NCBI GenBank assembly: GCA_902729315.2 | Contig: LR746266.1 | Span: 997,001 to 1,061,000, forward strand | Origin: Spirodela intermedia | Taxonomy: Eukaryota; Streptophyta; Magnoliopsida; Alismatales; Araceae | Direction of reading: 5' to 3' | DNA length: 64,000 nucleotides | In this document: positions 3,411 through 34,130 of the stretch, piece by piece | Layout of the letters: the number at the start of each line of letters is the position of its first letter | Numbering within the stretch: the first letter of the stretch is position 1 | Notes under the pieces: generated by a model | The model's database searches: none | Seen by the model: the letters and a program-made list of their open reading frames with translations, nothing else | What the model was told of the DNA's origin: nothing | Translations under genes and position numbers: made by a program

Positions 3411-4049
3411 CTTGCCCGAGCCGCTGACCTATCTGGGTGAGCTAAAAAATGTTTTTTTCTGTCTGGGTGGTGGTGACCGGAGAGAAGTGAGATGTGACCG
3501 TGGAGAAGGATCCTCAGTGGAATCCTTAGGGATCCCTCGAGAAGATATGTGGACGAACGCGGCATCTCCTCGTCGGCAGGTTGCAGCGGCCGGTGGGCGA
3601 GGAGAGCCCGTGGGGCCCTCCCCGGTGCGTCGGCCTTTGTAGGTATCAGTTGCACAACCTTGAAAGCAGATTGGCCGAATGGGTGTCGGCTGCCGGGTCT
3701 TCAATCACCGGCGTCGATCGACATAGAACTCCCTATCAGCACCGTTGCCCTCTTCCCTTCTTCTTCTGCTAACTCCTTATCCGCTCCTTCAGACGTTACG
3801 ATTCCCAAAATTTGAGTTGTCGTGGTTACTTTGAGGGCCATCTATAGATGCACCGAAGGATGTAATCTAGACCCTGTTCAAACCCAGCCTGGGTCTAGTA
3901 GAGAACAATCCTGCTAGATGCGGGTCGTACCCGGCGCCGGCAGGAGATAACCAGAAAGCCCGATCTCTCCCAGACACGATCTTAATTGGGCTTAGTTTGT
4001 TTTTAGTCAAAGACTTGTTTTGGAATTTTGCAATCCAAGCCAATTCGAA
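3411..4049. other. Intergenic region before the inverted-duplication arm
   Basis: GC-rich to moderate-GC sequence with overlapping frames in several phases and no recognisable domain. No gene is supported. Confidence 0.4.
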
Positions 4050-4376
4050 TCCCAGTAGTTGACTAGATATCATTTTGATCCGATTTCTATTAAACTATGG
4101 ATACTGATCACCTGGAAGTTATTGATTTGAACGTCAGCGTAGGCTTTGATGATGCAGGCGCAGACCATCTTGAACCAGGGGGAAAATATCGTCTTTAAGA
4201 ACAATCGTCGTCAGATAACATCAATGCGCTTCGCAATCTCCCTCCTTCCCACGTTTCGCCGGCCGAACAATGGCCCAAAAAGCACCACATTGCAGCCCTG
4301 AAGCCACAACAGCTCCTGCCTCCGGTCTCTAAATACGTGCTTCATCGGGACAACGGTCTCCAACGCGCACCTCAGC

Positions 4377-6014
4377 ATGGCGACTTCACCCACGGCACTG
4401 CAGTGGCTGAGCCTTGTGGGGGTCATCTGGCTGCAGCTGGCCAATGGGGCGAGCTCCAACTTCCCCGACTACTCCTCCAACCTCAAGCAGGTTCTCTCCA
4501 TATCCCAGATGCAGCTCAACGCCCTCGCCTTCGCTTCGGACTCCGGGAAGCTACTCGCCTGGGTCTCAGGCGTGGCGGTGGTCTACCTTCCTCTGTGGGC
4601 GGTGCTCCTCGTCGGCGCGGCTCTTGGGCTGGTGGGGTACGGGGTGCAGTTCCTCCTCGTGGGCGAGGCCCTCGCCTCCGTGTCGTACTGGCAGGTGTTC
4701 CTGCTGAGCGCCACGGCGGGTAACGCCGCCTGCTGGATCAACACAGCCTGCTACGAGGTGTGCCTGAGGAACTTCAGGTCCAAGGCCCGAGTCGCCATAG
4801 GGCTCTCCACAAGCTACTTCGGACTGAGCGCAGTGGCGTACACGGTCCTGGCCGACGCCTTTATCCAACCGCTCCCCCACCAGAAGGCGAAGGCGTACCT
4901 CCTCCTCAATGCGGTGGTACCGGTTGCGACCACGTTGTTGGTCCTGCCTATCGCAAGGGTCGTCTTATCGGAAGACAAGCAGCGGTCTGACGGTGGGTTC
5001 ATCTTGGTCTTCGTCATAGCCATGGCGAGCGGGGCGTGCGGAGTTTTCGGCAGCTTATGGTCTATGTCGACGTGGGTCATGTTGAGCTTCGGGTGCCTTC
5101 TGGCGGCTCTGCTGGTCTTGCCGGCGGCGGCAAAAGTACGGGAGGTGGTGGAGCAGAGACGGCTCCGGAGTGGGGGGGCCAGAGTTCACGACGAGGCCGT
5201 GGAAGCGACAACACCGGCGGAGGCAGTGAAGGTGGAGGAGGGGTTGGCGGCTCCAGGAGGATGGGAGGAGGCCGGAGAGGACAGGCAGGTCGCGGCGAGC
5301 GCCATGGTGAGGACGCCGGAGTTCTGGCTGTACTTCTTCGGTTACTTGTTTGGGGGGACGGTGGGGCTGGTCTACCTTAACAACCTGGGCCAGATTGTGG
5401 AGTCCCGCGGGCACTCCAAAACCTCTGCTGTGGTCTCTCTGGCATTCGCCTTCGGGTTCTTCGGCCGCTGCATGGTCTCCCTCGTGGACTTCGTCTGCAT
5501 AAGGTAAGGCCTTCGCCGTCCTGCTCCTCAAGCCGCCGCCGCGTCTCCCTTCCCTTCTCTGAGCATGTCTTCTTCCGACGCTATGTCCAGGTACGTGTAC
5601 GAGGTGCCGAGGCCCGCTCTCATCGCCGCTCTGACGGCGCCCATGGCCGGATCCTTCTTCTTGTTACTAAACTCCGGGAACGCGTGCCTCTACGCCGGAA
5701 ACGTTGTGATAGGGACCTGCACGGGGGCCATCACCTCCGCCGCCGCCTCCGCAACCACGGAGCTCTTCGGGACTAAGTTCTTCGGCATCAACCACAACAT
5801 CGTCGTCTCCAACATCCCCATAGGATCGTTCCTCTTCGGCTTCTTAGCGGCCTTCGTGTACCAGAGAGGCGAGAACGGACGGGGGGTTTGCATGGGAGCC
5901 CAGTGCTACGAGAGGACGTTCCTCGTCTGGGGCTGCCTCTGCGCTGTTTCCACACTACTCTTCGTCGTCCTCCACATCCGAACGCGGAAGACTCGATCTG
6001 TGGTTAGTGCGTGA
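4377..6014 (+). CDS. NFD4-like / nodulin-like major facilitator protein (two exons)
   Basis: Predicted membrane transporter of the plant nodulin-like/MFS group that includes NUCLEAR FUSION DEFECTIVE 4; substrates of most members are unknown. Exon 1 is 4377-5503 and exon 2 is 5591-6014. The 87-base intron has GT at 5504-5505 and AG at 5589-5590, phase 2, joining FVCIR to YVYEVPRP. The product is about 516 residues, slightly short for a family near 550-600. The N-terminal nodulin-like half shows WLQLANGASSNFPDYSSNLK and LALAFASDSGK-type text (here LNALAFASDSGKLLAWVSG). A charged cytoplasmic loop lies around residues 245-305, then the family stretch EFWLYFFGYLFGGTVGLVYL opens the C-terminal half. 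Many hydrophobic segments fit a multi-pass protein. No frame defect is visible. An inverted second copy at 14237-15871 has an early stop. Confidence 0.9.
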
Positions 6015-6130
6015 TCCCTGGGCAATGTGGAAACCCCCTGCCTCCGCCCGTTTTGTAGATTGATCAGATACATACGTGTATTACATATATTACACATGAT
6101 GGAGAGATATGTACACGCATCCACACACTT

Positions 6131-6132
<2 letters not shown>

Positions 6133-6164
<32 letters not shown>
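6133..6164. repeat. (GA)n microsatellite in arm A
   Basis: Thirty-two bases of perfect GA in the 3' flank of the NFD4-like gene. The mirrored tract at 14087-14118 is exactly the same length, which is unusual for a fast-mutating repeat unless the arms were homogenised very recently. Confidence 0.9.
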
Positions 6165-6166
<2 letters not shown>

Positions 6167-7194
6167 TAAGAATGGAATGAAGAGCATAAATTCGTACACA
6201 CCTCTCTCTTTCTGATTACGTGCATGCGCCTTCATTCTCAAGATTTTTTATTCTATTTAAATGGGCGGTTCGTAAGAGGTTAGCGTACTTGCCAAGTGGC
6301 AACAGTGATTGGTAAGGTCATTGAATTGGTGGGCAGGTTTTTAAGATGTAAAAACTTTGGGCTGCAATGAAGGGAAGTGAACCCCATAGGAAAACGGTGT
6401 AGAGGGGCAGCACCGCAGATTTATTATTTGTGTAATGATGGAAATTCCTGAATTATAAATTAATTATAGACTGAATAATAAGCAAGGTGCTTTGTCGAAA
6501 AATAAATAAATTATTAGAAGAGTTAGGATAATAAAATATATGCATAAAATATATATGTTGCCTGTCTGTTAGTCATGTTTTGTAGGAACCCATCTCCTCG
6601 AGATGTTATTTTTTCCTCATTTTGTGGAAAATATTTAATATGAACCTTATCTTGATGGCCACTAGATTGATTCCGCATGAGCACTCTAGTAGAAAAAAAA
6701 ATAGCTTTTCGATGAGCTTTGATATAATGATGGAGCTTGTGCTCGTGAGATTATTCTGCTGATAAATAATAAAAAAAATGTGACACTAAGGAAATAATCT
6801 ACATGGTCAGCATGAAGTCGATGGTTGCGGTGATATGTAATTTAATTCCATTAATTTAAAATATGTTTTAATCCGGTCGTGAATATTCCCATTTGATGGC
6901 CTATTTGTCTCTCGATTTGACCTGTCGAAGGTTGATGTCCATGGGGCTTTCGGTGCCTCCAACGAAGACTTTGTTCGGAGGCTGCTGTGGTCAAAGACAA
7001 GCTGAAAATTTTGAATTGAAGGCGAGGTCAGGACGTGGACTGAATATTAAAAAGACGACTAAATTTTTCTGTCTGTCATTGTTCCTCTGTGTTATCGTAA
7101 AGATTTGCCGTGCATCCGGCGCCCCTTCCGGAAACAACAACTTGGAGCAGATACTACCACACTTCATTGCGATGGAGACGGCACCATCAGTTCC

Positions 7195-7228
7195 CTCCCC
7201 TCTCCTCTCTCTCTCTCTCTCTCTCCAG
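7195..7228. repeat. Pyrimidine/(CT)n tract at the inner breakpoint of arm A
   Basis: A C/T-only tract begins two to three bases after the last base shared by the two arms. It is absent at the arm B breakpoint. Confidence 0.8.
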
Positions 7229-7278
7229 GAATGTATGGAGAAAATCAAAACTCGACATGATCGTAGACCTCCCCGGAG

Positions 7279-7318
7279 ATATATATATATATATATTATT
7301 TATTTATTTATTTATCTC
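7279..7318. repeat. (AT)n(TTTA)n microsatellite
   Basis: An alternating AT run followed by TTTA repeats in the spacer next to the inner breakpoint of arm A. Confidence 0.8.
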
Positions 7319-7499
7319 CTTCCCCTAGAGCTTAAGCCGAAGAAGTCAACTACTTATATAACATCGACTTCTAGACACATCAGCGATGATTAGTCTTCAG
7401 ACTGAATAGAATTCTAACACTGGTGAGATCAGACTGATGGTCTACTGGCTTGTCACCCCATTCTAACTATATTCCACGATCTTTATACTTCATGTATTT

Positions 7500-8036
7500 C
7501 GTGTACATGTAACATGTAACATTCATGGGTGATCTCTTAGACATATTTGAAATTAATTGAATGAAAATTTATGAAGAATATATTAGAAATGGCATGTTTA
7601 GATGATAATTCAATGAATACATTTGATGCTCATGATTTAAGTTTCACATTTATTACAAATTTTTGGCTGAAAATCATTAGTTTGTGTGCTTCTTTAAAAG
7701 GTGATAACAATTAGGAAGAATACCACTGAAGATATATAATGATGTCGGGATTAGATTTCATTTGAATATTTGTAATAAAATATTGACACAAATTTAGTTT
7801 GTATCATAGATGTCTATAATTTAAAATTATTATTTCCATTCATTTTCAATAGAGAATTGAATCTGAATGATATAAAATGGCCCTTTATATTTTTATAAAT
7901 ATTAAAAAATATTAATTAGAAATAACTTTCGAAAATTATATGTCAATGAAGTAATGATATAAAATATGAAAATTAAGATTTATATGTCTACTATGTGCTC
8001 TTATTATATTTGATGAGTTTTAGTTTATTATATATA
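7500..8036 (+). repeat. Dispersed AT-rich repeat, copy 1 (partner at 62460-62997)
   Basis: Long similarity in the same orientation to 62460-62997. Shared blocks include catgtaacattcatgggtga, atgaaaatttatgaagaata, tttggatattt-type text, and ttatttgaatatttgtaata. No coding potential was recognised. The stretch ends where the copia LTR at 8041 begins, so the element abuts or truncates this repeat. Confidence 0.75.
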
Positions 8037-8040
8037 AGCT

Positions 8041-8391
8041 TGTAGAAGAATATATAAGCACATAATCATTATAATAGTTAAAATATAATTCATAGAATTC
8101 AAAGAAGGTAAATAACTGAAGAGAAATTATCAAACTATGAAAGAATCTAATGAGAACAAGTCTTTTACTAAATATGTCTAAAAAAAAATCACATTTCAAA
8201 AATCTTTTGAGACAACTATTTCTTGGACAAACAATGGTTCCTTTACTTCTATAAAGCCTCCATGTATAATAGAAAGTACAAAAAAGGGGTTGAACACTAA
8301 GTGAAGAAGAGGGGGAGAAGAGGAGCAAGATGAAGACAAATCACAACCTTTGGCCGTTGTAAATTCTCACCCTAAATTCTCCCAAATAGCA
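8041..8391 (-). repeat. copia-1 3' LTR (lower-coordinate copy)
   Basis: About 350 bases resembling 12556-12937. Shared text includes gaatatataagcac-type sequence, aaaaaaaaatcacatttcaaaa, gaagagggggagaagag and cctaaattctcc. It begins TG and ends CA. The other copy has an extra A-rich stretch of about 30 bases near its end. Confidence 0.82.
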
Positions 8392-8539
8392 AGTCAATAA
8401 GATGAGTGACACATGTAAACAAACTCTACTTTGATAGTTATCTTTGTTCTAGTCGAAGTCAATATTCGTCGATGCTGTAAGTTCTCTACTTACTCCAAGA
8501 TACCTATAACATGAATGAAATCTAAATAACATTTGAGTT

Positions 8540-9150
8540 TCTCCACCATGACGACCTTCATCAACATATCTACAATATTCTCTTCTATGTGAACCTTCTC
8601 TAGAAAGATATCTCTAGATTTCATCAGATCATGAACCTTATGATATCACACATTAATATGTTTCAATTATGCATAGTAGACTTGATTCTTTACTAAGAAA
8701 ATTACACTCTAACTATCACAATGTAAATGCACTTCATCTTGTCAGTTCTCAAATTCAATTGACAATTTTTTTAAGCACAATGACTCCTTGATTGTTTCAA
8801 TAGCCACCATATACTTCGTCTCAATTGGAGATAACAGGATAATAAATTGAAGTGTAAACTTTAAATTTACAAACACACTAACTAGAGTGAAGACATAGCC
8901 CATTGTAAATTTCACTAGATCTTAGATCTTGTGATACCACACATCATTGTGCTTCAATCGTGTATAGTAGAATTGATTATTTGCCAAGTAAATAGCACTA
9001 TAACTGTTGCAATGTAGATGCACTTCACCTTGTCAGATCTCAAATTCAATCAATAACCTCTTTAACCACAAGGCCTCCTTAGTTGCTTTAGTAACCACCA
9101 TGTACTCCACCAACCATAGTGAAAACATAGCATGTTGTAGATCTTTGATG
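8540..9150 (-). pseudogene. copia-1 RNase H remnant with internal duplication
   Basis: On the minus strand this matches the RNase H end of the plus-strand element at 20290-20460, including the block for ...SRDI-LEKVHIEEN.... The stretch 8635-8830 is repeated imperfectly at 8930-9110: both contain ataccacacat/atatcacacat, tgcacttca-cttgtcag, ctcaaattcaat and accaccat. So part of the domain is duplicated in tandem with a period of about 295 bases. Confidence 0.7.
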
Positions 9151-9723
9151 ATCTAAAACTCTGAAAAAATTTACATCAACAAAATCAATAGTAAAAAGAG
9201 AACTCTATTTGTCAAAGAAACTTATGAAATCTAAGGAACCTTTTAGATATCAAAGAATTCACTTCACTGCACTCTAATACTCATCCCTTAGATTGCTCAT
9301 AAATCTATTCACAAGCTCAATAGATTGAGTAATATATGACTAATATAAATCATAACATATGAGAGAGCTAATTGTGTTAGCATAAGAAATTTACTTTATT
9401 TCAATTATATTTTTCTCAAACATCAGGTACTAAGTAGTAGATAAAATGATTTATTAGAAGAGTGCCGACTACTTTAACATTACTCATGCAAACATATTCA
9501 TCACTTTTGAAAGATAACTCCACTAAGTCAACTATAGTTATACTCTCTCTTAGTCTCTATGGATCTCTATGTCAATGATCTTCTTTATTGTATTAAAATC
9601 TTTTATGTCAAATTTCCTACTCCATAATGTCTCAACCTTATAATTTCTTATAAATTCTTTATAACAATAAGCATATCATCAACATAGAATATCAAATAAT
9701 CTAGTAACAATCATCACATGTCT

Positions 9724-9936
9724 TCACATAAACACAACAATTAAACTCACACTTGATATAGTCAATCTACAGTATGTGAAAGTTAATTTTTCTGTACCAC
9801 TATTTTGGTGACTACTTCGATCCATAAGTGACTTTCTCAATTGATAGAAAAGATGTTCTAACCCTTGCACAACAAAACTCTTTAGGTGCTGCATGTAAAT
9901 CATCAACTCTAAATTTTCATGAAAAAATGATGTCAC
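9724..9936 (-). pseudogene. copia-1 reverse transcriptase fragment
   Basis: Seventy residues read HENLELMIYMQHLKSFVVQG, then a stretch resembling LKKSL. This fits the copia RT segment whose usual form is HGDLEEEIYMQQPEGF, with several substitutions. It is a short island of open frame in a decayed pol. Confidence 0.75.
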
Positions 9937-12543
9937 ATCTAACTATTCAAACTTTATATTTTTATGTGTAGGTTAACACCAGCCAAATAAATGCGTGTGT
10001 CACAATAAGAAAAAACTTATCATTATAATCAATTTCTTATTTTTGTACAAAATCTATGGCAACAAGTCTTGCTTTGTGTTGTGGTTGATCAACATCAACC
10101 ATTGGTGTCTTCTTCTTATATACTCACTTGCAGCCAATAACTGATTTCTTTACAAGTAAATCTATTAAGTCTCATGTGTGGTTCTTGTCCAAGGATACTC
10201 AGTCCTTAGACATCACCTGCAATCAATTTTCCTTTTTCAGATAACTAATCACCTCTCAAAAAAACAAAAAACATAGTCATTTAGACAAATAAGAGGCCTT
10301 GTTTCATGCCTACCTTGTCTAGTAATAATGCTATTAGAAATATCTAATGATTCTTCTACTTGATCTCCACCTCAAACTAAATTGGATGGACCCTACACAT
10401 TTTCTACCTCCACCCAAATTCAATCTATAACATAAGTATCATCAGATTTCTAAATCATTTTCTCCATAAAAGACTTTAATAAATTTTTATAAAAAATCAC
10501 ATATCTACTTAAAAGAATTTTCTTTGCCTTTAAATCCCAAAGTCAATGTTCTTTCATGCCATTGCTAGTTGAAGAAGATATATATTTTTGACTTTAGATC
10601 AAGCTTCGATCTCTCACCAACAAGAGTAAGGGCATATTCTAGACATCCAACTATACACAAATTTGAATGATCTTATAAGATTTTCAGTCCACACATCTTT
10701 TGCCACATTCTCTTTAAGAGAAGAATCTAATAATTTATTTACCAAATAAATCATCATGTTCACAATTTTTATCTAATTTTTTTTGGACAAATTAACATTT
10801 AATCACAAACATTATGCTTTTTCAATAATTATGTGGTTCATCCACTCTGTTACACTATTATGTTATAAATTTTTCTTCATTATATAGTGAAGTTAAATGT
10901 CATATTCTTCATAAAATTGATCAAATTCAGAATCCTTAAATGTTATGTTATTGTCAGTTTGCATAACCTTAATCTTCCTCTTAGATTGGTTCTTTATATT
11001 TGTGCACCAAGTCTTGAACTTAATGAACACATCTAACATATGTTTTAAAAAGAATACTCAAATGTTCTTGAAAAATCATCAACAAAGGTAAAAAAATAAC
11101 GAGTTCTACCTATTGACATCACATCAACTAGATCATACATGTCCAAATGAATATAATTTAACATACCATGTCTCATTTTTGTTGTCTTGAGTGTCACCTT
11201 ACACTATTTCTCCATAACACATTATTTATACAAAAATAATTTACGAGTTTTCACATTAGATAGTAATATCCATGAATGTAATGTTGGGATATCTATCTCG
11301 TTCATATAACTTAATCTCAAGTGTTATAATAAAGTGTCATTTGTCATGATATTAGTTGATGTTGCAAGACAAGCTCCATCTACACTCTTCTTTTATTAAC
11401 TTTGAAGATCTCATTCTCAATTTTGAAACAACAACCATTTTCTTCCAAGTGAAAATAAGTTATAATATAATGTTGATCCATGATGAGCATTTCTAAGCTT
11501 TTGAACCACTTTATCAAACATTCAAACTTTTACCGAACTAATGTTGACCACCTTACAACAAACATCATTCCTCATGGAAACAACTCCAATCGCACTCCTA
11601 TAGGAATCAAATTAGTCAATATGTGGACATATATAGTAAGGCCAATTGGAATCAAGAATCTACGTGTTTGTCAACTTCTCAACTGCAACTAAGGCAAAGT
11701 AGCCTTCACCATTTTCACTATCCTCAACCTTCATAATATTAGCCAAATTAGATTCACTTACTATCTTTTCATTTTGATTCTTTGGATAATCTCTTCGCAA
11801 ATGTCCATTCTCATGACACGTGGCATGTTTAGTTTTTCAACCAATTAATATGTGATTTAAATCAGTTCTTCTTCTCTCCTGATGATTATTTCTCATTTTA
11901 TCTCTCATGTTCTCATCCACCTTTCACTTACAAACCTTCATCACAATCATTACTAACATACTTCTTCTGATGATAATACTTCATCAATGAATTAATGACA
12001 TTTTAAGAATAGGTGTTGTGATGCCATGTAATAAGGTGGTGACAAAATAATCATATGAATATGGAAGATAAATTAGTAAAATAATAACTTTATTCTCATT
12101 AGAAAAGTCTACTTCTATACGTAATAAGTTATTATGTTAGTGATAAAAATAATCAATGTAAAATATCAAATCATCTCCCTTTGATATACACGATCTAAAT
12201 AATTTTTTTTTGAATGTTAATTTACTCATCATCAACTTTCATGTACTTCATTTCTCTAAGTTCTTTCATAGTTCTTTGGGATCATATTCATGTATGACCT
12301 ACTAAAGAGGCCAATCAGATAAATATAAACAAATAAAACCCATAATCTTCTTCTCTATTTTCTCTCAAGTATTGACCTTAATATTATCTAGCTTTTGTCC
12401 ATCCAAAGTCACATAGAAATCCTACATCAAATATGCATCAAACACTTGATGCTTTCAGTAAAATTAGATGATTTATCTAACTTATGAATATCAACATGTA
12501 CCTTAAAAGCCATAACAAGTCAAAAGAAAAATTCAAACCTATC

Positions 12544-12555
12544 TCTAATACCATT
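12544..12555 (-). other. copia-1 primer binding site
   Basis: Minus-strand sequence tggtattagag lies two bases inside the LTR and resembles the initiator-Met-tRNA primer site tggtatcagag used by most plant copia elements. Confidence 0.75.
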
Positions 12556-12937
12556 TGTTGAGGAATATGTAAGCACGTAATCACCATAACAACAAAAACA
12601 TGATTCGTGGACTTCAAAGAAGTCAAATAACTAAAGAGAAATCATCAAATTATGAACAAATCTAATGAGAGCAAGTCTTTCACCAAAGATATCTAAAAAA
12701 AAATCACATTTCAAAAAGCTTTTGAGATGACTCTAATATCTTAGACAAATAATGACTTATTCTCCACTTCCATAAAGGCTTCACTTATAATATAAATGAA
12801 CAAGAACGGATAGAACACCAAGTGAAAAAGAGGGGGAGAAGAGAAATAAGAGGAGGACAAATCGCAGCCGTTGGATGTTGCAAAATGTTGCCCTAAATTC
12901 TCCTTAAAAAAAAAGGGTGAAAAGGTCCTAAATAACA
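12556..12937 (-). repeat. copia-1 5' LTR (higher-coordinate copy)
   Basis: Pairs with 8041-8391. It begins tgttgagg on the plus strand next to the primer site and ends near taaca at 12937. Many substitutions separate the two LTRs, so the insertion is old. Confidence 0.8.
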
Positions 12938-14084
12938 AGGGGGTCGGGCCCCGATTGGAGGGCCCGCCCACATATTATACATGCAGTTTTCTCAAACCAC
13001 CAGCGTCAGGCTCTAGTGACTTGACTGGGTCAGCGGGATAACTGAAATCTGCCAACATAACTGATGGTGCCGTCTCCATCGCAATGAAGTGTGGTAGTGT
13101 CTGCTCCAAGTTGTTGTTTCCGGAAGGGGCGCCGGATGCACGGCAAATCTTTACGATAACACAGAGGAACAATGACAGACAGAAAAATTTAGTCGTCTTT
13201 TTAATATTCAGTCCACGTCCTGACCTCGCCTTCAATTCAAAATTTTCAGCTTGTCTTTGACCACAGCAGCCTCCGAACAAAGTCTTCGTTGGAGGCACCG
13301 AAAGCCCCATGGACATCAACCTTCGACAGGTCAAATCGAGAGACAAATAGGCCATCAAATGGGAATATTCACGACCGGATTAAAACATATTTTAAATTAA
13401 TGGAATTAAATTACATATCACCGCAACCATCGACTTCATGCTGACCATGTAGATTATTTCCTTAGTGTCACATTTTTTTTATTATTTATCAGCAGAATAA
13501 TCTCACGAGCACAAGCTCCATCATTATATCAAAGCTCATCGAAAAGCTATTTTTTTTTCTACTAGAGTGCTCATGCGGAATCAATCTAGTGGCCATCAAG
13601 ATAAGGTTCATATTAAATATTTTCCACAAAATGAGGAAAAAATAACATCTCGAGGAGATGGGTTCCTACAAAACATGACTAACAGACAGGCAACATATAT
13701 ATTTTATGCATATATTTTATTATCCTAACTCTTCTAATAATTTATTTATTTTTCGACAAAGCACCTTGCTTATTATTCAGTCTATAATTAATTTATAATT
13801 CAGGAATTTCCATCATTACACAAATAATAAATCTGCGGTGCTGCCCCTCTACACCGTTTTCCTATGGGGTTCACTTCCCTTCATTGCAGCCCAAAGTTTT
13901 TACATCTTAAAAACCTGCCCACCAATTCAATGACCTTACCAATCACTGTTGCCACTTGGCAAGTACGCTAACCTCTTACGAACCGCCCATTTAAATAGAA
14001 TAAAAAATCTTGAGAATGAAGGCGCATGCACGTAATCAGAAAGAGAGAGGTGTGTACGAATTTATGCTCTTCATTCCATTCTTA

Positions 14085-14086
<2 letters not shown>

Positions 14087-14118
<32 letters not shown>
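14087..14118. repeat. (CT)n microsatellite in arm B
   Basis: Mirror of the GA tract at 6133-6164, also 32 bases. Confidence 0.9.
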
Positions 14119-14120
<2 letters not shown>

Positions 14121-14236
14121 AAGTGTGTGGATGCGTGTACATATCTCTCCATCATGTGTAATATATGTAATACACGTATGTATCTGATCAATCTACAAAA
14201 CGGGCGGAGGCAGGGGGTTTCCACATTGCCCAGGGA

Positions 14237-15871
14237 TCACGCACTAACCACAGATCGAGTCTTCCGCGTTCGGATGTGGAGGACGACGAAGAGTAGTGTG
14301 GAAACAGCGCAGAGGCAGCCCCAGACGAGGAACGTCCTCTCGTAGCACTGGGCTCCCATGCAAACCCCCCGTCCGTTCTCGCCTCTCTGGTACACGAAGG
14401 CCGCTAAGAAGCCGAAGAGGAACGATCCTATGGGGATGTTGGAGACGACGATGTTGTGGTTGATGCCGAAGAACTTAGTCCCGAAGAGCTCCGTGGTTGC
14501 GGAGGCGGCGGCGGAGGTGATGGCCCCCGTGCAGGTCCCTATCACAACGTTTCCGGCGTAGAGGCACGCGTTCCCGGAGTTTAGTAACAAGAAGAAGGAT
14601 CCGGCCATGGGCGCCGTCAGAGCGGCGATGAGAGCGGGCCTCGGCACCTCGTACACGTACCTGGACATAGCGTCGGAAGAAGACATGCTCAGAGAAGGGA
14701 AGGGAGACGCGGCGGCGGCTTGAGGAGCAGGACGGCGAAGGCCTTACCTTATGCAGACGAAGTCCACGAGGGAGACCATGCAGCGGCCGAAGAACCCGAA
14801 GGCGAATGCCAGAGAGACCACAGCAGAGGTTTTGGAGTGCCCGCGGGACTCCACAATCTGGCCCAGGTTGTTAAGGTAGACCAGCCCCACCGTCCCCCCA
14901 AACAAGTAACCGAAGAAGTACAGCCAGAACTCCGGCGTCCTCACCATGGCGCTCGCCGCGACCTGCCTGTCCTCTCCGGCCTCCTCCCATCCTCCTGGAG
15001 CCGCCAACCCCTCCTCCACCTTCACTGCCTCCGCCGGTGTTGTCGCTTCCACGGCCTCGTCGTGAACTCTGGCCCCCCCACTCCGGAGCCGTCTCTGCTC
15101 CACCACCTCCCGTACTTTTGCCGCCGCCGGCAAGACCAGCAGAGCCGCCAGAAGGCACCCGAAGCTCAACATGACCCACGTCGACATAGACCATAAGCTG
15201 CCGAAAACTCCGCACGCCCCGCTCGCCATGGCTATGACGAAGACCAAGATGAACCCACCGTCAGACCGCTGCTTGTCTTCCGACAAGACGACCCTTGCGA
15301 TAGGCAGGACCAACAACGTGGTCGCAACCGGTACCACCGCATTGAGGAGGAGGTACGCCTTCGCCTTCTGGTGGGGGAGCGGTTGGATAAAGGCGTCGGC
15401 CAGGACCGTGTACGCCACTGCGCTCAGTCCGAAGTAGCTTGTGGAGAGCCCTATGGCGACTCGGGCCTTGGACCTGAAGTTCCTCAGGCACACCTCGTAG
15501 CAGGCTGTGTTGATCCAGCAGGCGGCGTTACCCGCCGTGGCGCTCAGCAGGAACACCTGCCAGTACGACACGGAGGCGAGGGCCTCGCCCACGAGGAGGA
15601 ACTGCACCCCGTACCCCACCAGCCCAAGAGCCGCGCCGACGAGGAGCACCGCCCACAGAGGAAGGTAGACCACCGCCACGCCTGAGACCCAGGCGAGTAG
15701 CTTCCCGGAGTCCGAAGCGAAGGCGAGGGCGTTGAGCTGCATCTGGGATATGGAGAGAACCTGCTTGAGGTTGGAGTAGTCGGGGAAGTTGGAGCTCGCC
15801 CCATTGGCCAGCTGCAGCCGGATGACCCCCACTAGGCTCAGCCACTACAGTGCCGCGGGGGAAGTCGCCAT
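14237..15871 (-). pseudogene. NFD4-like mirror copy with a stop at codon 9
   Basis: Inverted copy of the transporter gene at 4377-6014. Exon 1 is 15871-14748, the intron 14747-14661 and exon 2 14660-14237, with the same splice sites. Exon 2 and nearly all of exon 1 give the same protein as copy A. The first 40 codons differ: a CAG codon in copy A is TAG here (15847-15845), one serine codon is deleted from the SSN triplet region, and there are several missense changes. Translation from the original ATG would stop after eight residues. The next in-frame ATG (MQLNALAF) would give a protein lacking the first membrane segment. It is therefore probably a pseudogene or an N-terminally truncated variant, and it may act through RNA pairing with copy A. 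Confidence 0.85.
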
Positions 15872-16049
15872 ACTGAGGAGCGCGGTGGTGACCGTTGTCT
15901 CGATGAGGCACGTATTTAGAGACGGGAGGCAGGAGCTGTTGTGGCCGGAAGTCTGGTGCTTTCTTGGCCATTGTTCGGCCGGCGAAACGTGGGAAGGAGG
16001 GAGATTGCGCGGCGCATTGGTTTGTCCGACGTCGATGGATCTTAAAAGA

Positions 16050-16545
16050 TGTTGACGGTGTGAGTACGGCTTACCCGTTCGGGAGACGTAAGAGAGAACC
16101 TCTCCCCTCTCAACCGTTGGGGAGACGTGAGAGAGATCTCACGTCTGACTCACTCGGAAGGCGTGCGATGAGTAATGGGGTGGTGACACGGTAATCACGT
16201 CCGTCGACATTATTACCCGGGGGTGGCGGCCGTCACATCCGATATGTGTGGGCGAAACGTAGATCGAGATGATTACTTTTATGGGGCGTCGGTTATATTT
16301 TTATATAATGCATATATTTACTACGACGGTCGATTTTATTCTTTATTCTATTTTCTATCTTTTCAGTGTTTTCTTTTTTTTCTCTTGATTTAGCTCTATG
16401 ACTTTTTTTTATATCTTCTATTTCTTATATGACAGTTGAAGTTTTTATTTTCTATATTTGACATCTTTTTTATTTGTTTTTATTGATATATAGAAATTAA
16501 ATTTGTATCATTATTATGATCTTGTGTTTACATATTTTTCTTACA
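16050..16545 (+). repeat. copia-2 5' LTR
   Basis: Begins tgttgacgg and ends ttaca. Pairs with 20567-21206 through blocks such as gagagaacctctccc, tctcaaccgtt and tattattatgat. It lacks about 145 bases, including the TATA region, that are present in the 3' LTR, with the gap near 16440-16470. Confidence 0.85.
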
Positions 16546-16547
16546 AA

Positions 16548-16558
16548 TGATATTAAAA
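16548..16558 (+). other. copia-2 degenerate primer binding site
   Basis: Sequence tgatattaaaa follows the 5' LTR by two bases. It resembles the Met-tRNA primer site tggtattagag with G-to-A changes. Confidence 0.45.
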
Positions 16559-17278
16559 TATTAATTTAATAATTTATGAATTTACTATGGCTTCTAAGGT
16601 GCATACTTACATCTAGAAGTTAGATAAATATTTTAATTTTTATATCAAAAAGTATCATGTATATGATGTATTGTTATAGATTGACTTATACAAAATTTTA
16701 GATAGTTTAAAGTTAGACAAGATCAATAATGATGATTAAGAGATAATAGAAAAGAAGATTGGAGGTTTTATTCATACGTCTGTTTGATTGAACTTTTTAA
16801 TAGGTCATATATGAATACAATCTAAAAGAATTTTATAATAAGTTGGAGAAATGATATACGCCAAAGTCGATGATGAGTAAATTGATATTGAAAAGAAAAC
16901 TATTTAAGTTACGTATATCATATGGAGATGATTTGGCATCTCATATTGATTATTTTAATTAATTATTGAATAACTTATTTTATATAGAATTAATTTTTTT
17001 TAATTAACATAAAATTATTATTTTATTTATTTCTCTCCCTAATTTATATGATCATCTTGTTATGACCTTGTTGCATAACAGTACAATACCCGTTCTTGAA
17101 GATATTATTGATTCATTGATGGAGTATTATCATCGAAAAAAAGATGTTAGTGAGGCTCGTGGTAAAGGTTTATATGTGAAGGGTGAAAAAAAAATGTAAA
17201 AGAGAGAAGTAAAAAGAATCGTCAGGAGATAAGAAGAGTTGGTCTAAGTCATGAATAAATTGATTGAAAAACTAAATT

Positions 17279-17320
17279 TGTCACAAGTGTCATGAGAAGG
17301 AACACTTGCGAAGAGATTGT
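17279..17320 (+). pseudogene. copia-2 gag zinc knuckle
   Basis: Encodes CHKCHEKEHLRRDC, an intact CX2CX4HX4C nucleic-acid-binding knuckle of retrotransposon gag, in an otherwise decayed frame. Confidence 0.85.
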
Positions 17321-17999
17321 CTAAAAAACTAGAGTGATAAAATTATAAGAGGTGAATCTAATTCGGTTAATATTGAGAAAGTTGATGACATAGTAAATGG
17401 TGAAGTCTATTTCGGACTTATTATACATGAGGAGTTGTCAAATATATAGATTTTTGATACTATTTGTTCTTATCATATGTGTCATAATATTGACTAGTTT
17501 GACTCATACAAGGGTGCAATAGAAGTTGTTTCTATGAGAAATAATATAATTTGTAAAGTTGTAGGCATTGATTCGGTGAAAATTCAAATGTTTGACAAGT
17601 GATTTGAGAGCTTGAAAATATTTGTTATGTTTCAACATTACATCAAAATTTGATTTCGCTTAGAGTGTTAGAGGTGAATAAATGTTACTTCAAAAGAGAG
17701 AATGAGATCCTCAAGATTATAAAAAGATCACTTGTTGTGATAAAGAGAAGACGTCAACGAGCAAATATTTATAAACTTAAGAAGAGTATTGTTGTAGGTA
17801 GAACTTTTATTACAACATCAGATAATTTAATGATGGATGACATACTTTTATGATATTTATGATTATGTCATATGAGTGAGACATGTATATAGAAGTTACA
17901 TGCACAATGACTACTACTTAGTATGAAAACTTGTAAATTGAATTTTTGTAAGTATTGTATCATAGAAAAATAGTACAAAGTGACATTCAAGATAGTAAA

Positions 18000-20500
18000 A
18001 CTTGATACGAGTGATGTATTGGATTATATTCATTCAGATGTATGTGGTCTAATTGATGTGACGTCAATGAGTGATGTTCAATATTTTCTGACTTTTGTTG
18101 ATAATTTTTCTAAATTTTTTTTCAGTATTCTTCTTGAATCATAAGTCTGAAATATTTACAAAGTTTAAGACTTGGTGTATGAAGGTGGAGAATTAAATAG
18201 AGAGGAAGATCAAAATCTTACAAACTAACAATAATACATAATTTAGGAATTCTGAATTTGATCAATTTTGTAATGAGCATGATATTCAATGTCATTATAC
18301 AGTGAAGAAGACTCCACAGCAAAATGATGTTGTTGAGTGGATAAGCCACACGATTATTAAGAGAGCATGGTGTTTACAATTGAATGTCGACTTGCCCAAA
18401 ATTATTTTAAGTGTGGCAGCTTATTTGGTGAATAGATTATCAAATTATGCTCTTGATGGGAAGGTTGCTGAAGAAATATAGATTAAAAATCATGTTGACT
18501 ATTTGAATTTGTATATATTTAAATATCTAAGATATATATTTACACCTGTTGATGAGAGATTGAAACTAGATCTAAAGTCAAAGAAATATATCTTCTTGGA
18601 CTATAGTACTGACATGAAGGGATATTGATTTTGGGATTTAGAGGTGAAGAAAGTTATTTTAAGTAGGGATGTGATTTTTGATAAATATCACATGTTGGAG
18701 TTATTTTATGTAGAGCACAAGATTCAAGAATCTAATGATAATCAAGTTGTAAACAGACTAAAACTAGAGGTGAAGATTGTGCAGGGTCTTCTTAATTTTG
18801 TTGTGAGTGAAGATCAAGTTACAAAATCATCAAATATTCCTGATTATATTATTACTATAAGGAGTAGATGTGAAGTAAGACCTCCCACTCTTTTTGATGA
18901 TTATATTATCTTTGTATTATTTGCAATAGATAATGAGCCCACAACTTTTTAAGAGGTAATTAGTTGTTATGGAAAGGAGAAGTGAATACAGGTGATGTTT
19001 GAGGAATGAACATCCTTAGATAAGAACCACACTAAAAAATTAGTAGATTTTCTTATAGAAAAGAGAGTTATTAAGTGTAAATGAGTGTACATGAAGAAGT
19101 CACTGATAATTGATGGTGATTAGTCACAGTACAAAATAAAGCTTGTTGTCAAAATCTTTACACAAAAGTAGAGAATTGATTATTTAGAAATATTTTCACC
19201 TATTGTGAAGCACACGTCTATTCATTTGGTGTTAGCCATTGTCACATATGAAGATATAGAACTTGAGTAGTTGGACGTGAAAACATTATTTCTTCATGGA
19301 GATTTAGAAGAGACTATTTACATGTAGTAGTCGGAGGGTTTTACTGTGCAAGAGTCATAACATCTTGTTTGTTAATTGAAGAAGTCCCTTTATGAGTTTA
19401 AGCATGTATCAAGACAATGATACAAGAAGTTTGACTCTTATATGTTGAAGATTGATTATATGAGGTGCAATTTTAACTGTTGTGTTTATATGAAGACTTG
19501 TGATGTTGATTCTTTAATTATTTTGATGTTCTATGTTGATGATATATTTATTTTTTTGAAGAATTCACATAAGATTACTAAATTAAAGGCACTATTAGAC
19601 AACTAATTTGATATGAAGAATCTTAGTGTGGCAAAGAAGATTCTTAAAATAGAGATTCATAGAGACTAAGAGTTAGGTCAATTTTGATTGAATTAGAGGA
19701 GTTATCTTTCAAAGGTGGTGGATTCATTTGACATAAGTAATGTTAAAATAGTGAGCACTCTTCTGGCTAGTCATTTCTAATTATGTACTATTCAGTGGAT
19801 TTATTTGACATCTTAGAAAGATATTATTAAGATGAAGTAAATTATTTATGCTAGTGTGGTTGTCTCTCTCATGTCTACTATAGTTTGTACCAAATTAGAT
19901 ATTGCTCATGCAATTGAACTTGCGAGTAGGTTTATGGACAGTTAGGAAAGAAACAACGTAGTGAAGTGGATTCTCTAATATTTAAAAGGTTCTTTAGATT
20001 CATAATCCATTTTGACTGAAAAAGTTGTCTTTCTACTATTGGCATTATTGATGTAGATTTTGTCAAAGATTTAGACCATCGAAGATCTAATATGTGATAT
20101 ATTTTTACCATGATTGATGGACTTGTTAGAAGTTTACACTTTAGACTACTATTGCATTGTCTACAATTGAGGTAGAGTATATGGTAGCTATTGAAGTGGC
20201 TAAGGAGTATTTGTGGTTGAAGAAATTATTGAGTAAACTTGGGATCAAATAAGGTGAAGTTCCTTTATATCATGATAGTCAAAGTATTATTTGCTTAGTA
20301 AATAATCAAGTCTATTATACACAATTGAAGTATATTGATGTGCAATATCACAAGATTCATGAGTTGGTGAATTCTAGAGATATCTCTCTAGAGAAGGTTC
20401 ACATAGAAGAGAATATCATGGATAGGTTGACAAAGATTGTCACATTAGAGAAGTTCAAATATTGTTTGAATTTGATTCATATTGTAGGTACCTTACAGAA
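18000..20500 (+). pseudogene. copia-2 integrase, reverse transcriptase and RNase H remnant
   Basis: Landmarks in order are LDYIHSDVCG and FLTFVDNFSK (integrase, about 18020-18110), LDVKTLFLHGDLEETIYM (RT, about 19270-19325), FYVDDIF (RT active site, 19532-19543), and the RNase H end with NNQVYYTQLKYIDVQYHKIH near 20310-20360. Stops replace glutamine codons at several family-conserved positions, for example tag tag after IYM where QQ is expected. The element cannot encode a functional polyprotein. Confidence 0.85.
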
Positions 20501-20566
20501 GGTGGAGAACTTGCATGAATAGACATTGACTCCAGGTGCAATGATGATGGCTACGAAGGTGGAGTT

Positions 20567-21206
20567 TGTTGATAGTGTTAGTTTATCACGGTTGACCTGT
20601 TCGAGAAACATGCGAGAGAACCTCTCCCGCATCTCAACCGTTTGGGAGACTAAGAGAGAGCTCTCATGTCTAACTCACTTTGAAGGCATGCGAGGAGTAA
20701 GAGGGTAGTGACATGGTAGTCACGTCGACTCATAAAACTCGTTCGGGGGTCATGTAGAGAGAATGCGGGTAGCTATAGCCGTCTCATCTGAGATGTGTGA
20801 GTTCAGTTATATGTAGATCAAGATGGTTTCTTTTAAAGAATGGTTAAATTTTCTTATTTTCTATAATTAAGACATGTATTTACTCTTTTTTGAGTACGAC
20901 AGATGATGATTTCTCTCTTGATTCTATTATCTTTCTTCATTAAACTTTATTCTTTTTTTTGATATCTTCTCTTTCTTTTATTGTAGGTGAAGTCCTTATA
21001 AAAGGAGATAAGAGTCTATTGTTGACTCTCTAATGTGTGAGTTATCTTGAGAGTATTGAGATGTGGATTAGAGGTACTCGATGAAAGTCTTGTTCTCATT
21101 AGGATTTCTAATAACTTGGTGATTTCTCTTCTATTTGTTCTTATTGATATCTAGAAATTGAGTTTTTGTTATTATTATGATTCTATGTTTGTATATTTTT
21201 CCTACA
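20567..21206 (+). repeat. copia-2 3' LTR
   Basis: Begins tgttgatag after a purine-rich stretch (gaaggtggag) and ends cctaca. It keeps a TATA-like ttataaaagg near 20996-21005 that is missing from the 5' LTR. Confidence 0.85.
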
Positions 21207-21355
21207 AAATATGATATTTTTCCCTAGTTCAAGATGGTCTCCACCTCATCGTGAAAGCCTTAAGGTTGAGATTGAATTAATAGTGTCCATGTGATCAATA
21301 TTCATATTTTAATAGAAAATGAGTCAATTTGATGTTTCGTCAACCATTGAAATTT
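21207..21355 (-). repeat. Outer segment of arm B, displaced by copia-2
   Basis: Resembles the reverse complement of 4050-4193: shared ttcaagatggtct, aaagcct, gatca-tat-cat and tttaatagaaa in the same order, at roughly 70 percent similarity by eye. Joined to 16049 it restores arm A order, with tcttaaaaga followed by gatattt. Confidence 0.8.
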
Positions 21356-21829
21356 TGACCTGCAGCAAGAAGCATTCTTACTAGGTGTGAACTAGGTCGA
21401 GATGTGACAGTTGATGTATCTTTAAATTGCCCATAAAGGAAGCAGAAAAATCTCAAATTTTGGGAGTCTTCACATAGCAGCGAAAGGAGAGTTAGACAAA
21501 AAGGGAGAGGACGGCAACGGTGCCGATAGGGAGTTTTATGTCAATCGATGTCGGCAATTGGGCCTATTTATAGGCCTTGAGAGGAGAGAGAGTATTACAA
21601 CCTAAGGTAAATAAAAGGAAATTAAATATGGGTAAATCTTAATAGTAATAGAAGTTCGGATCTAGAGCTCAGGTCTGCCGGTGGCAACATGGAGTGGCCT
21701 CAATAGTTTGTGGGGTCTCTAGAGGAGGTGACGTGGAGTCCAATGATGTCGTGGTCACCGATGGTGGGGTTAGGGTCCATGCCCACCAATGGCTGAAGAA
21801 GCCACTGTACTGGAATGGCAAACTCAATT
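21356..21829. other. Intergenic, repeat-like region without a recognised gene
   Basis: Contains a TATA-like palindromic block ggcctatttataggcc near 21565, which could be a minus-strand LTR promoter remnant. A 96-residue plus-strand frame at 21694-21984 has no family signature. Confidence 0.35.
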
Positions 21830-22149: not shown

Positions 22150-22839
22150 TGATGTAGGATGGGGCGAGATCCTTGTACCTAATCAATGAAACTCAAGTCC
22201 CAAGATTGGGTAGTCAGATTGATCAAGTCAGAATATATGGACCGTAGACTCTAGGTCTGACCATATAACCTAAGTACAGGTAGGCGTACCAATATGCATG
22301 ATCAACCTAGGACAACCCGGGGAAACACTCGATGATGGTAAGTGTGAGGCCCTCTCAGTCTATGTCCGGACAGACAGCGGAACGGTCGTCGTGAAGTAGC
22401 CTAAGGCTGTAGCTCACGAATGGTGACGAGTCTGACGTAGTGTTGGAAGTCACGATTTGATAACCCGTCCTATCTTGTCAACGTTCTCCTGATGGCAGTG
22501 GAAATGAGCCGAGAAAACCTTTCGAAAGATAATTAAACTTAAGAAAAAGGGGTATGGAGCTAACCTTCAGGCTATGTAGCCCAGCAGGTCGTGATGGAGC
22601 AGAGACTCGACATAAGTAGAGACATCCGGTGAAGAGCGATGCTCAATGTCGACAATCGGTCTTGGTCGATAGTCGCCGTAGTCGTCGTCATAAGATGTGG
22701 CACGGTCAGATCAGGAGTGGGCCCGCTGGTGGGCCGAAGGGCACGCTAGCAGATGTGAGCGGCAAGTTGTGCGGCATGTCTCAGGGCACACGGGCGGCAG
22801 CACCTAGTGGGTGCACAGGGTGCGTGCAGCATTGGTGCT

Positions 22840-23112
22840 TCGGCGGGAAGGCCGAGTGTTAGTGGTGCTTCGGCGGGAATGCCGAGGCCAAGCATTAGCG
22901 GCACTTCGGCGGGAGTGTCGAGCATCAGCAGCGCTTCAGCGGGAATGCCGAGTGTCAGCGGTGCTTCGGCGGGAATGCCGAGTGTTAGCGGTGCTTTAGC
23001 AGGAGTGTCGAGTGTCAATGGCACTTCAGCAGGAGTGCCGAGCATCGATGGCGCTTCGGCAGGAGTGCCGAGCGTCGACGGCGCTTCGGTGGGAATGCCG
23101 AGTGTCGACAGT
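22840..23112. repeat. 30-bp tandem array in the lower LTR
   Basis: About nine to ten imperfect units of gcttcggcgggaatgccgag followed by ten more bases of the type tgtcagcggt. Each unit contains the short inverted pair cggc...gccg. The regular reading frames on both strands (SGASAGMPSV and similar) come from the period being divisible by three. Confidence 0.9.
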
Positions 23113-23409
23113 TGGGTGGAAACCCAACCGTTGCCGGAAGGATCGGCCTTCTCTAGCGGTGCCAGGGAGCGGAGTAGAGGACGAAGCCGATCTGGCTGAT
23201 GATACCAAGGAGAGTTGAGCCCTCCTGGTCTAGGTGGTGCTGGAAATGGCGTGATGGCGGCAGATCGTTAGGAAACTCCGGTGGGGGCCTATGAAGAGCT
23301 TGGACTGGATCTGGCTTGTCAGCACGGTAGTAGGGGGTCTCCCGACGTCGCCACAAGTAGGCGTTCATCGGTGAACGGCCAGCGACTAGGTGGAGCGGTG
23401 AATGGCGAC

Positions 23410-25041
23410 TGACGTGACTCAGTCGTTGTATATTAAATCACGCAAATATAAAATTTATAAAACTAGAAAATACAAATTTTCGGATATTTAGAAGTATTTC
23501 TAAATAAATATATCAATTATAATTCAATAAAACTTCCAAAAATAGTAGTAATTTTCCAAGTCGATCGTAGGGATGTAATATAATATCTGGTAATTATTCA
23601 GAATTTTTCTCAATGAATACGATTTTCTATGAATTTTATACTAGGAAATAAAAAAGAAATATATTTAAAATTCACGAAAAAAGGAAATAAGGGCGCGGAT
23701 GTCAGGATGACATCAGCACCCGGCAAACGCGAATCGAGCGGAAATAGAGTTCCGCCCGGTGATTCTTACGTAAGCGATTACAGACGATTTAATTGATCAA
23801 ATTAAGATCTGTAAAAGCAGAAAGAATCGTAATAGAATAAAGTATATTTTGGTAAATTAAAAAGATAAAAATTATCACTAAATGAAGCGTAAAGTAAATT
23901 GAAAGTAGGAAAATAGAGTTCTGACGTCGCGATGGCGATGCGTCGACGATGTATTGGAATCCTGAGCATTCGGGAGGATCGTTGTGCAGTGTCCACAGCC
24001 TCGAAGGCTCTTTTTGGACAAAGACGACATGGGCAATCTCTAGATCTTCTCGCGAAGTCTAGAGATCAATGAAGTGGGTCGTCGAATCGTTTTCGGTGGC
24101 TGTCACCCGGTGGAGCAGAAAAACGGCGACTTTGCGGCTCTTCGGCGGCTGTCACCTGACAAAGAGGAGCTAGATGGAGGTGGGGCGCATGTTAGGGAGT
24201 TTCATCCTCAGGTCTGCGCAGTAAGAGGAGGCTCTTCATCGCATCTGGTACGCTCTCAAGAGGTGGCGACTCGTCTCCCGACGGATCGTACTCTTCCCGA
24301 TGACGGCTTGTTCGTTGATCAATTGGAGATGATTTACTCGATAGATTCGCGATCCTTTTATCGCGAATCGTTCAGTAATTTTAGTAGCAATGCTCTGCGA
24401 ATCGCATTGACGAGATTTTTGCCGATGATCCAGTGATTCTCGTTACTTTATCTTTCACCGGCGATTTGCAGAAAAGTTGCGATAATCAGATAAAAATATA
24501 TGACTTTTGACTTTAGAAGGACTCAAACCTGCGCCGGTCGCCTGCCTCTGAGGAAGGTGTGACGTGGGTTTAGTCCCACATCAGTGGTGCGCCGATTTTT
24601 TGGGCGAATATATAGTAATGTTAGCTTTCTAAGCAAAGTCCCTTCTCTCGCATGTACGACCACTCCTTGCCCCACAGCCGGCTGGCCACCAGTGACGTGG
24701 AAGGGGAGTGGCGCACATGTGCCCCTATCGGTACAAGCTAAGCTGCTCGAGCCCCTGCTCGAGGCTACTCCCCGATTGCGCTTCTGACCCCCTTGCAGGC
24801 CTGACTAGCTGGCGGGTCCCCCCTTTTTGTAATATTTTTATTTTTATTTCTTGTTCTTCATTTATCTCAAAAAGTAAGACTGTAAAAGTCATATAAAATC
24901 ATATAATTACCCAAAAATTCATGTTAATTAACTAAAAACCACAAATCATACTTTAACACAAATATAAGTCTATTTATCATGAGTTAAGGCTAAAACTATA
25001 TTATTTACTAATTATTAACTCATGATAATGAAGACTTATCA
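23410..25041 (+). mobile_element. 1.6-kb solo-LTR-like element, copy 1 (inside the lower gypsy LTR)
   Basis: Starts TGACGTGACT and ends GACTTATCA (TG...CA). It is flanked by a perfect 5-base target-site duplication gcgac (23405-23409 and 25042-25046). No internal coding region, primer site or second LTR was seen, so a solo LTR is the best call; a small non-autonomous element is possible. It carries an upstream-sequence-element/TATA promoter at 24573-24614. Confidence 0.87.
24573..24614 (+). promoter_or_regulatory. snRNA-type USE plus TATA, copy 1
   Basis: GTCCCACATCA at 24573-24583, then 25 bases, then TATATA at 24609-24614. The plant snRNA upstream sequence element consensus is RTCCCACATCG. 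Confidence 0.6.
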
Positions 25042-33863: not shown

Positions 33864-33928
33864 TGGGCCACAGGTGCCGGCACGCGGGCCATAGGTGCCG
33901 GCACGCGGGCCACAGGTGCCGGTACGTA
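33864..33928. repeat. 21-bp tandem triplicate, upper LTR only
   Basis: Three near-identical copies of gggccacaggtgccggcac plus gc. The corresponding part of the lower LTR (near 22805-22830) shows no triplicate. Confidence 0.85.
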
Positions 33929-33934
33929 GGGCAT

Positions 33935-34130
33935 GCACAGTGCCAGCACTTTGGCAGGAATGGCGAGTGTCAGCGGCACTTTGGTAGGAGTGCCAAGCAT
34001 CAGCGGCACTTTGGCGGGAGTGCCGAGCATCAACGGCGCTTTGGCGGGAATGCTGAGCATCAACAGTGCTTTGGCAAGAGTGCCGAGTGTCAACGGTGCT
34101 TTGGCGGGAATGCCAAGCGTCGGCGGTTGG
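33935..34130. repeat. 30-bp tandem array in the upper LTR
   Basis: About six imperfect units of the same 30-base repeat as at 22840-23112, with ctttggcgggaatgcc-type cores. The copy number is lower than in the other LTR. Confidence 0.88.

Follow-up and report, generated by a model that had tools for sequence, protein, structure and literature searches.

Why are two inverted copies of a gene nearly identical over about 2.7 kb? The two copies, A and B, lie in a window of Spirodela intermedia DNA (the whole stretch analysed, 64,000 nucleotides). A sequence-only reading of this DNA had left three options: the structure is very young, it is kept alike by gene conversion, or it is an assembly artefact. 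We consider it very probable that the near-identity reflects ectopic gene conversion of about 2.7 kb between old inverted paralogs, probably with A copied onto B.

A and B are, by their sequence, old inverted paralogs within a cluster of NFD4-like transporter genes. Copy A is intact. Its exon 1 (4377-5504, forward strand) has an open frame, its intron (5505-5591, forward strand) has GT...AG ends as read from the sequence, and exon 1 joins in frame in translation to an exon 2 that carries the stop codon (5592-6014, forward strand). The predicted product has 516 amino acids and is of the membrane-transporter type. A Pfam search found a Nodulin-like domain (PF06813, E = 1.1e-60) and an NFD4_C domain (PF23262, E = 3.3e-73) in this one open protein, in agreement with the earlier description of an NFD4-like gene in inverted duplication. 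Copy B, on the reverse strand, has its own ATG at 15871 and a premature TAG at codon 9 (15845-15847, from the translation and the stop-to-stop frame), and there is no open frame from its start codon. This stop, a W-to-R substitution and the loss of a Ser all fall in the 98 bases of exon 1 that lie outside the near-identical tract; inside the tract the frame is intact. Copy B is thus a predicted pseudogene.

We found that the inner arms of A (4475-7192, forward strand) and B (15776-13059, reverse strand) are gapless reverse complements that differ at 2 of 2,718 aligned sites (divergence 0.0007). The arms hold the remainder of exon 1 together with the intron, exon 2 and 3' sequence, and lie around a spacer of 5.9 kb. 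Self-BLAST of the window paired 4194-7192 with 16046-13059 on opposite strands. The sequence-only reading had described an inverted pair with coordinates summing to 20251 and no net indel, which holds for A from 4475 to 7192. It had also placed two substitutions near 4970 and 7151; we found two, at A/B positions 4967/15284 and 7152/13099. The GA microsatellite that it gave as 32 bases is indeed equally long in both arms, at 31 bases by the pattern search used (starts at 6134 and 14117).

Beyond the inner 2.7 kb, identity drops, a feature absent from the earlier reading. The next block of A (4194-4474, forward strand) comprises the 5'UTR or leader and the first 98 bases of exon 1; that of B (15777-16049, reverse strand) is bounded by the insertion point of a retrotransposon, TE2. 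Within 4197-4474, 241 of 267 sites match. Past TE2, which separates it from the gene, the upstream flank of B (21207-21344, reverse strand) is homologous to that of A (4058-4193, forward strand) at about 69-75%, with 93 of 135 sites matching. The earlier reading had included 21207-21355 in arm B; 21207-21344 does pair with 4196-4058, but at an identity of just ~75%. Homology that it had not reported extends further upstream, where A (3702-3887, forward strand) and B (21381-21560, reverse strand) are 71% identical, and B is 77% identical to paralog C over 21413-21560. Along one homologous stretch, the differences between A and B therefore climb stepwise, from 2/2,718 in the inner arms to 26/267 in the next block and 42/135 in the promoter past TE2. 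The first step is sharp (Fisher p = 6e-26); allowing one change point in A-B divergence gave 2dlnL = 123.

The left edge of the near-identical tract lies anywhere in 4429-4475 of A (last outer mismatch at 4428, last indel at 4472-4474). On the other side, the downstream flank of A (7193-7480, forward strand) is missing from B and common to paralogs C and D: 200 of the 282 sites aligned with C are identical, and there are matches to D at 70231-70315 and 70412-70551. Because it is shared in this way, the flank is ancestral, and the right edge of the tract is therefore the end of the homology of B. The flank of B past that end (12904-13058, no strand assigned) is unrelated to the flank of A. A genome search in which two candidates were scored did not find a source for these 155 bp and gave one 46-bp match elsewhere.

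Constraint was considered as a cause of the A-B identity and rejected, since A and C differ at 327 of 2648 sites (12%) over the same inner stretch. In the 3' noncoding part, A and C differ at 213 of 1119 sites, compared to 1 of 1178 for A and B. In the inner coding part, A-C dN was 0.047 and dS 0.154 over 478 codons. Private sites in the inner arms numbered 325 for C, 2 for A and 0 for B; in the promoter the corresponding numbers were 15, 22 and 20. The identical run between A and B covers 292 variable sites. When the 388 sites variable among the three copies A, B and C were shuffled 10,000 times, no shuffle equalled this run (shuffle maximum, 145).

TE2 (16050-21206, forward strand) provides a means of ordering these events. 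It appears to be a degenerate copia-like LTR retrotransposon in the 5' region of B. Its LTRs, with ends placed by eye, lie near 16050-16545 and 20577-21206, and its reading frames are broken. One of five TE2 pieces searched had a weak match to RVT_2 (E = 7e-4; 19.7 bits, below the Pfam cut-off of 31.6). The LTR blocks are 81-82% alike, with 39 differences over 220 sites in the two that align best (K about 0.21). The resulting age is a low estimate because only these two blocks were used; the full-length alignment, over 488 sites, gave K 0.41 but was discarded, as stretches that align poorly inflate this value. LTR divergence exceeds that of the inner arms by a ratio of about 300. The element is flanked by a likely 5-bp target-site duplication, of which the left copy (16045-16049, forward strand) equals the empty site in A exactly and the right copy (21207-21211, forward strand) agrees with the left at four of five bases. 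Both A and C are uninterrupted at this site, and TE2 therefore entered B after A and B had separated.

A related element, TE1, lies in the spacer between the arms (about 8041-12902, with approximate ends; reverse strand, as judged from its inverted match to TE2). Its LTR-like ends are 79% identical, and its internal parts are 71-76% identical to inverted TE2. TE1 was rejected for dating the arms; from its position in the spacer it could have inserted either earlier or later than the duplication. Also rejected was one inverted repeat uniting arms and elements. The TE1/TE2 coordinate sum is ~29,000, compared to 20,251 for the arms, which indicates that TE1 and TE2 are separate related elements.

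Elsewhere in the window, a DUF538 gene pair has a similar identity step. Scans of the window for tRNAs (bacterial setting) and Rfam families found nothing at default thresholds.

The locus has the marks of interlocus gene conversion: an abrupt step in identity, a duplication older than the tract, and trees that differ between tract and flank. The proposal that the arms are kept alike by conversion gains support from the step, which falls inside continuous homology, and from the 12% divergence of A and C. Based on these results we suggest that A and B separated as old inverted paralogs, that TE2 then jumped into the 5' region of B, and that B lost its downstream end and turned into a pseudogene. 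Less certainly, an older conversion tract may then have reached TE2. Much later, ectopic conversion from A to B would have made ~2.7 kb of the inner arms nearly identical, possibly through strand invasion between the inverted copies during break repair. One end of this tract would lie close to 4475/15776; the other would coincide with the limit of shared homology, 7192/13059.

The older tract is likely because block 4194-4474 has an intermediate age, and the tree likely changes at TE2; we hold this part with moderate confidence. In the 5'UTR, 25 sites were private to C and 21 to A or B, compared to 15 and 42 in the promoter (p = 0.005; 103 sites, with 6 promoter sites that have three different bases dropped). 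Comparing A-B with A-C separately in each region gave p = 0.04 for the 5'UTR and p = 0.28 for the promoter. Constraint on the two regions may differ, although A-C divergence is much alike in promoter (33/132) and 5'UTR (37/179).

The direction of the recent conversion was probably from A to B. B is damaged outside the tract yet open inside it, which fits a donor under selection, in line with the inner A-C dN and dS given above, and makes A (4475-7192) the probable donor and B (13059-15776) the probable recipient. The reverse, with B as donor and A overwritten, seems to us rather unlikely, and its probability overlaps that of the preferred reading, since the process is the same. It might appear to be favored by C, which has the base of B at each of the two differing positions. 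This agreement is uninformative: it would also be seen if B had been the donor and A had then changed twice, and two A-private changes are equally expected after either direction. Against B as donor, its stop lies outside a tract with an intact frame, and the old TE2 cuts B off from its upstream flank.

Near-identical repeats are the weakest point of hybrid short-read/nanopore assemblies. The inner arm of B could have been filled with A sequence, the true B being more diverged or absent there. The assembly appears to be such a hybrid, in which MaSuRCA combined Illumina super-reads with nanopore reads (as described for clone 8410 in PMC7645714). However, a B arm diverged by ~10% would have its own short-read k-mers, making wholesale replacement unlikely, and the arms retain two differences. 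The nanopore reads that entered the assembly were 10 kb or longer (62-fold depth), which exceeds one arm plus flank (PMC7645714). A search of the assembly (8 of 8 candidates scored, counts being lower bounds) found no third near-identical copy. The artefact is made less likely still by the sharp step inside continuous homology and by the tract stopping at the end of the homology of B, and we regard it as improbable.

The comparison between clones covered proteins. Over 423 residues compared with A, the protein P0002, encoded on a contig other than C3, C11 and C5, has 16 differences; a frame-shifted stretch accounts for 13 of these, and 3 lie outside it. Here V102 is common to copies A and B; P0002, C and the C11 copy have residue A there.

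A very young inverted duplication that has yet to diverge would account for 2 differences in 2,718 sites, but it is hardly credible, and this option of the sequence-only reading is rejected, because the homology runs on into old, diverged collinear flanks common to paralog C and because B carries the old TE2 at a point where A and C are uninterrupted. This rejection holds provided that the outer homology is not itself artefactual. The near-identity is probably due to ordinary gene conversion.

The process is already known, and this locus is a well-resolved new example. In the coffee SH3 cluster of NBS-LRR resistance genes, paralogs reportedly exchange tracts by gene conversion; ours is likewise an exchange within one cluster, but between inverted partners and with a pseudogene recipient that carries a datable insertion. 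Palindromes on the W chromosome of the willow Salix purpurea are held to be old from retrotransposon analysis and are locally identical, and a 3-kb stretch without arm differences was read as gene conversion, according to a passage of PMC7023750. Both are old, locally identical inverted copies in a plant nuclear genome. The willow case, as given there, involves a 20-kb sequence in four sex-chromosome arms with an expressed converted gene, whereas our case is a single pair of gene size within a small cluster of genes, with one arm a pseudogene. Mammalian sex-chromosome palindromes keep arm identity above 99% through frequent arm-to-arm conversion (part of PMC8981503). Here, too, near-identical inverted copies are ascribed to conversion, but unlike those large palindromes the 2.7-kb tract is bounded by old diverged sequence and the end of the homology of B. 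With arms and spacer of the sizes found here, the pair lacks the large near-identical arms and short spacer of a sex-chromosome-type palindrome.

The locus is a clean case that can be dated relative to a retrotransposon, and the insertion and the broken end seem to bound conversion tracts. The near-identity of these duplicates would badly mislead age estimates. Tail-to-tail gene pairs can cause hairpin silencing. One could imagine that in this duckweed, which is mainly clonal, mitotic conversion has written the intact gene again and again into its inverted twin, whose promoter is disrupted, in at least two rounds, the latest after clones of the species split, with TE2 and the broken end of B as walls, and that hairpin RNA from the tail-to-tail arms could reduce expression of the gene family. 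We give this scenario little credence. A literature search combining all four terms for tail-to-tail inverted-repeat silencing found no matching paper. The two Spirodela species propagate mainly asexually (PMC7645714), and the mutation rate of S. polyrhiza is very low (PMC6423293). Conversion may therefore be a relatively large source of change in Spirodela, and this locus, together with the two sequenced S. intermedia clones, could be used to test its share.

We found that the inner arms of the inverted duplication, 4475-7192 in copy A and 15776-13059 in copy B, are gapless reverse complements that differ at only 2 of 2,718 sites (4967/15284 and 7152/13099, A/B). The sequence-only reading had given the coordinate sum, the substitutions and the equal GA run correctly, as the arm alignment confirmed. 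Copy A (+ strand) is intact, with two exons (4377-5504 and 5592-6014) that encode 516 amino acids; its protein contains Pfam Nodulin-like (PF06813) and NFD4_C (PF23262) domains. Copy B is coded on the - strand, so the two lie tail to tail. Its ATG is at 15871 (-) and is followed by a stop at codon 9; B also has a Trp-to-Arg change and has lost one Ser. All three changes lie outside the identical part. The public protein closest to that of A, P0001 from Spirodela intermedia, starts where A's protein has residue 45. It is also short of 12 residues, those spanned by 36 bases of exon 1 that run from GT to AG (4659-4694 in A, with a counterpart in B). If copy A was its source, the annotation of P0001 looks wrong.

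A DNA search of the assembly (8/8 candidates scored) gave at least 16 matches. On the same contig (C3), paralog C lies at 74631-83072 in window coordinates (L010-L011, C3:1061001-1081000), with an interruption of ~5 kb at 75667-80687. This insert is in a coding exon, and C also has an altered start codon, frameshifts and a stop. Paralog D is a fragment (partial copies near 68446-70551 and 67228-67913). On other contigs, C11 has a copy 83% alike over the coding part, and C5 has short matches. Only A is open throughout, among the copies seen on C3. The upstream and downstream flanks of A are common to C, and the downstream flank also to D, indicating that A is in the ancestral surroundings. B has kept the ancestral upstream flank, and its homology stops at 13059 in unrelated sequence.

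A very young duplication, one of the options first proposed for such likeness, is ruled out by the stepwise divergence of A and B and by an LTR retrotransposon in B, TE2. Along one homologous stretch, A-B divergence rises from 0.0007 in the inner arm to 26/267 at 4197-4474 and 42/135 in the promoter flank (4058-4193 vs 21207-21344), where it is not below that of A-C (33/132) or B-C (31/133). TE2 (16050-21206), a degenerate copia-like element with a 5-bp target duplication (4/5 bases agree), lies between the intermediate block and the promoter flank, that is, between the second and third steps. Its site is uninterrupted in A and C, so the insertion of TE2 into B is later than the separation of A from B. 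The TE2 LTRs differ at 39/220 sites (K ~0.21, two best-aligned blocks), roughly 300 times the inner-arm value. Together, the steps, the empty site and the LTR divergence indicate that the identical arms are far younger than the duplication. A related degenerate LTR element, TE1 (8041-12902), lies between the arms, in opposite orientation to TE2 inside arm B; the two are 71-76% alike.

Constraint was rejected as the cause of the identity: A and C differ at 327/2648 sites of the inner stretch, and in its 3' noncoding part at 213/1119, compared to 1/1178 for A-B. A and B agree over as many as 292 consecutive sites out of the 388 that are variable across the three copies (A, B, C); no run longer than 145 arose in 10,000 shuffles.

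The near-identity might also be an assembly artefact. The window spans 997001-1061000 of contig C3, and the assembly holding it has 136,496,439 bases in 32 contigs. The genome report describes S. intermedia assemblies of clone 8410 (136.6 Mb, nanopore and Illumina) and clone 7747 (147.6 Mb, PacBio), and from the total size we infer that ours is that of clone 8410. The published counts for clone 8410 are 18 pseudomolecules, 70 scaffolds and 86 contigs, none of them matching our 32. If ours is the 8410 assembly, it was built with MaSuRCA, which combined super-reads from Illumina data with nanopore reads (≥10 kb, 62-fold depth; PMC7645714). Three observations argue against an artefact and make it the less likely reading: two differences still separate the inner arms, the tract edge falls where B's homology runs out, and the 8/8 scored candidates, a lower bound, include no third near-identical copy.

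The step pattern, as read from the sequence, is that of ectopic gene conversion, another of the options first proposed. Strand invasion during break repair is a textbook mechanism of gene conversion, and invasion between the inverted copies would drive it here. The recent tract starts abruptly between 4429 and 4475 and extends to the end of the shared homology. The likelihood change point is at 4428, the last outer mismatch, and the last indel was placed at 4472-4474. Conversion would have overwritten the inner arm up to where A-B homology stops.

The intermediate block (4194-4474 in A, 15777-16049 in B) extends to TE2, where the tree switches. Sites private to C versus those private to A or B number 25:21 for 4194-4376 (5'UTR) and 15:42 for the promoter (p = 0.005; promoter defined as aligned sites before 4194, with 6 promoter sites with three bases dropped). 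For each region alone, A-B versus A-C gave p = 0.04 (5'UTR) and p = 0.28 (promoter). With moderate confidence, the simplest reading is an older conversion tract, stopped by TE2, at which it would have ended.

Conversion appears to have run from A to B, because B is cut off from the upstream flank and broken outside the tract, and its frame is intact inside. With the selected copy as donor, one would expect the frame to be intact there. Between A and C, dN is 0.047 and dS 0.154 in the inner part (478 codons). Both inner-arm differences are changes private to A and do not decide the direction. A second public protein, P0002, from an S. intermedia contig other than C3, C11 and C5, differs from A at 16/423 compared residues, 13 of them in one frame-shifted stretch and the others at residues 102, 292 and 406. 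Residue 102 is Val in A and B, and Ala in P0002, C and the C11 copy. This one protein site weakly suggests that conversion postdates the split of the clones, the copy behind P0002 being uncertain.

For inverted copies in plants, the willow W palindromes provide a reported case of conversion; there, as here, retrotransposon dating and the lack of differences between arms form the argument (PMC7023750). No such locus was named in the literature titles and abstract openings screened. We conclude that the near-identity of the arms is real and explained, by a process of a kind already known.

Elsewhere in the window, long repeats at 22150-25684, 28177-29703 (inverted), 33198-36742 and 59277-60919 form one family, 78-94% alike, perhaps retrotransposon remains; the family includes an Ala- and Pro-rich frame of short tandem repeats at 22746-23267. 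A PPR-repeat frame (1133-2287, +) and a glutaredoxin-domain frame (56271-57926, -) have Pfam matches above the curated cut-offs. Two DUF538 genes (36742-38026 and 50171-51501; the first, which was searched, has a Pfam E of 1.5e-31) lie in direct orientation, 13.4 kb apart. They differ at 10/793 sites up to 37534 and 157/492 beyond, where the alignment includes badly aligned stretches (2dlnL 269). The near-identical part starts where homology ends, the left flanks having no significant match to each other. This step is probably another conversion tract; in this region the process may be a common one.
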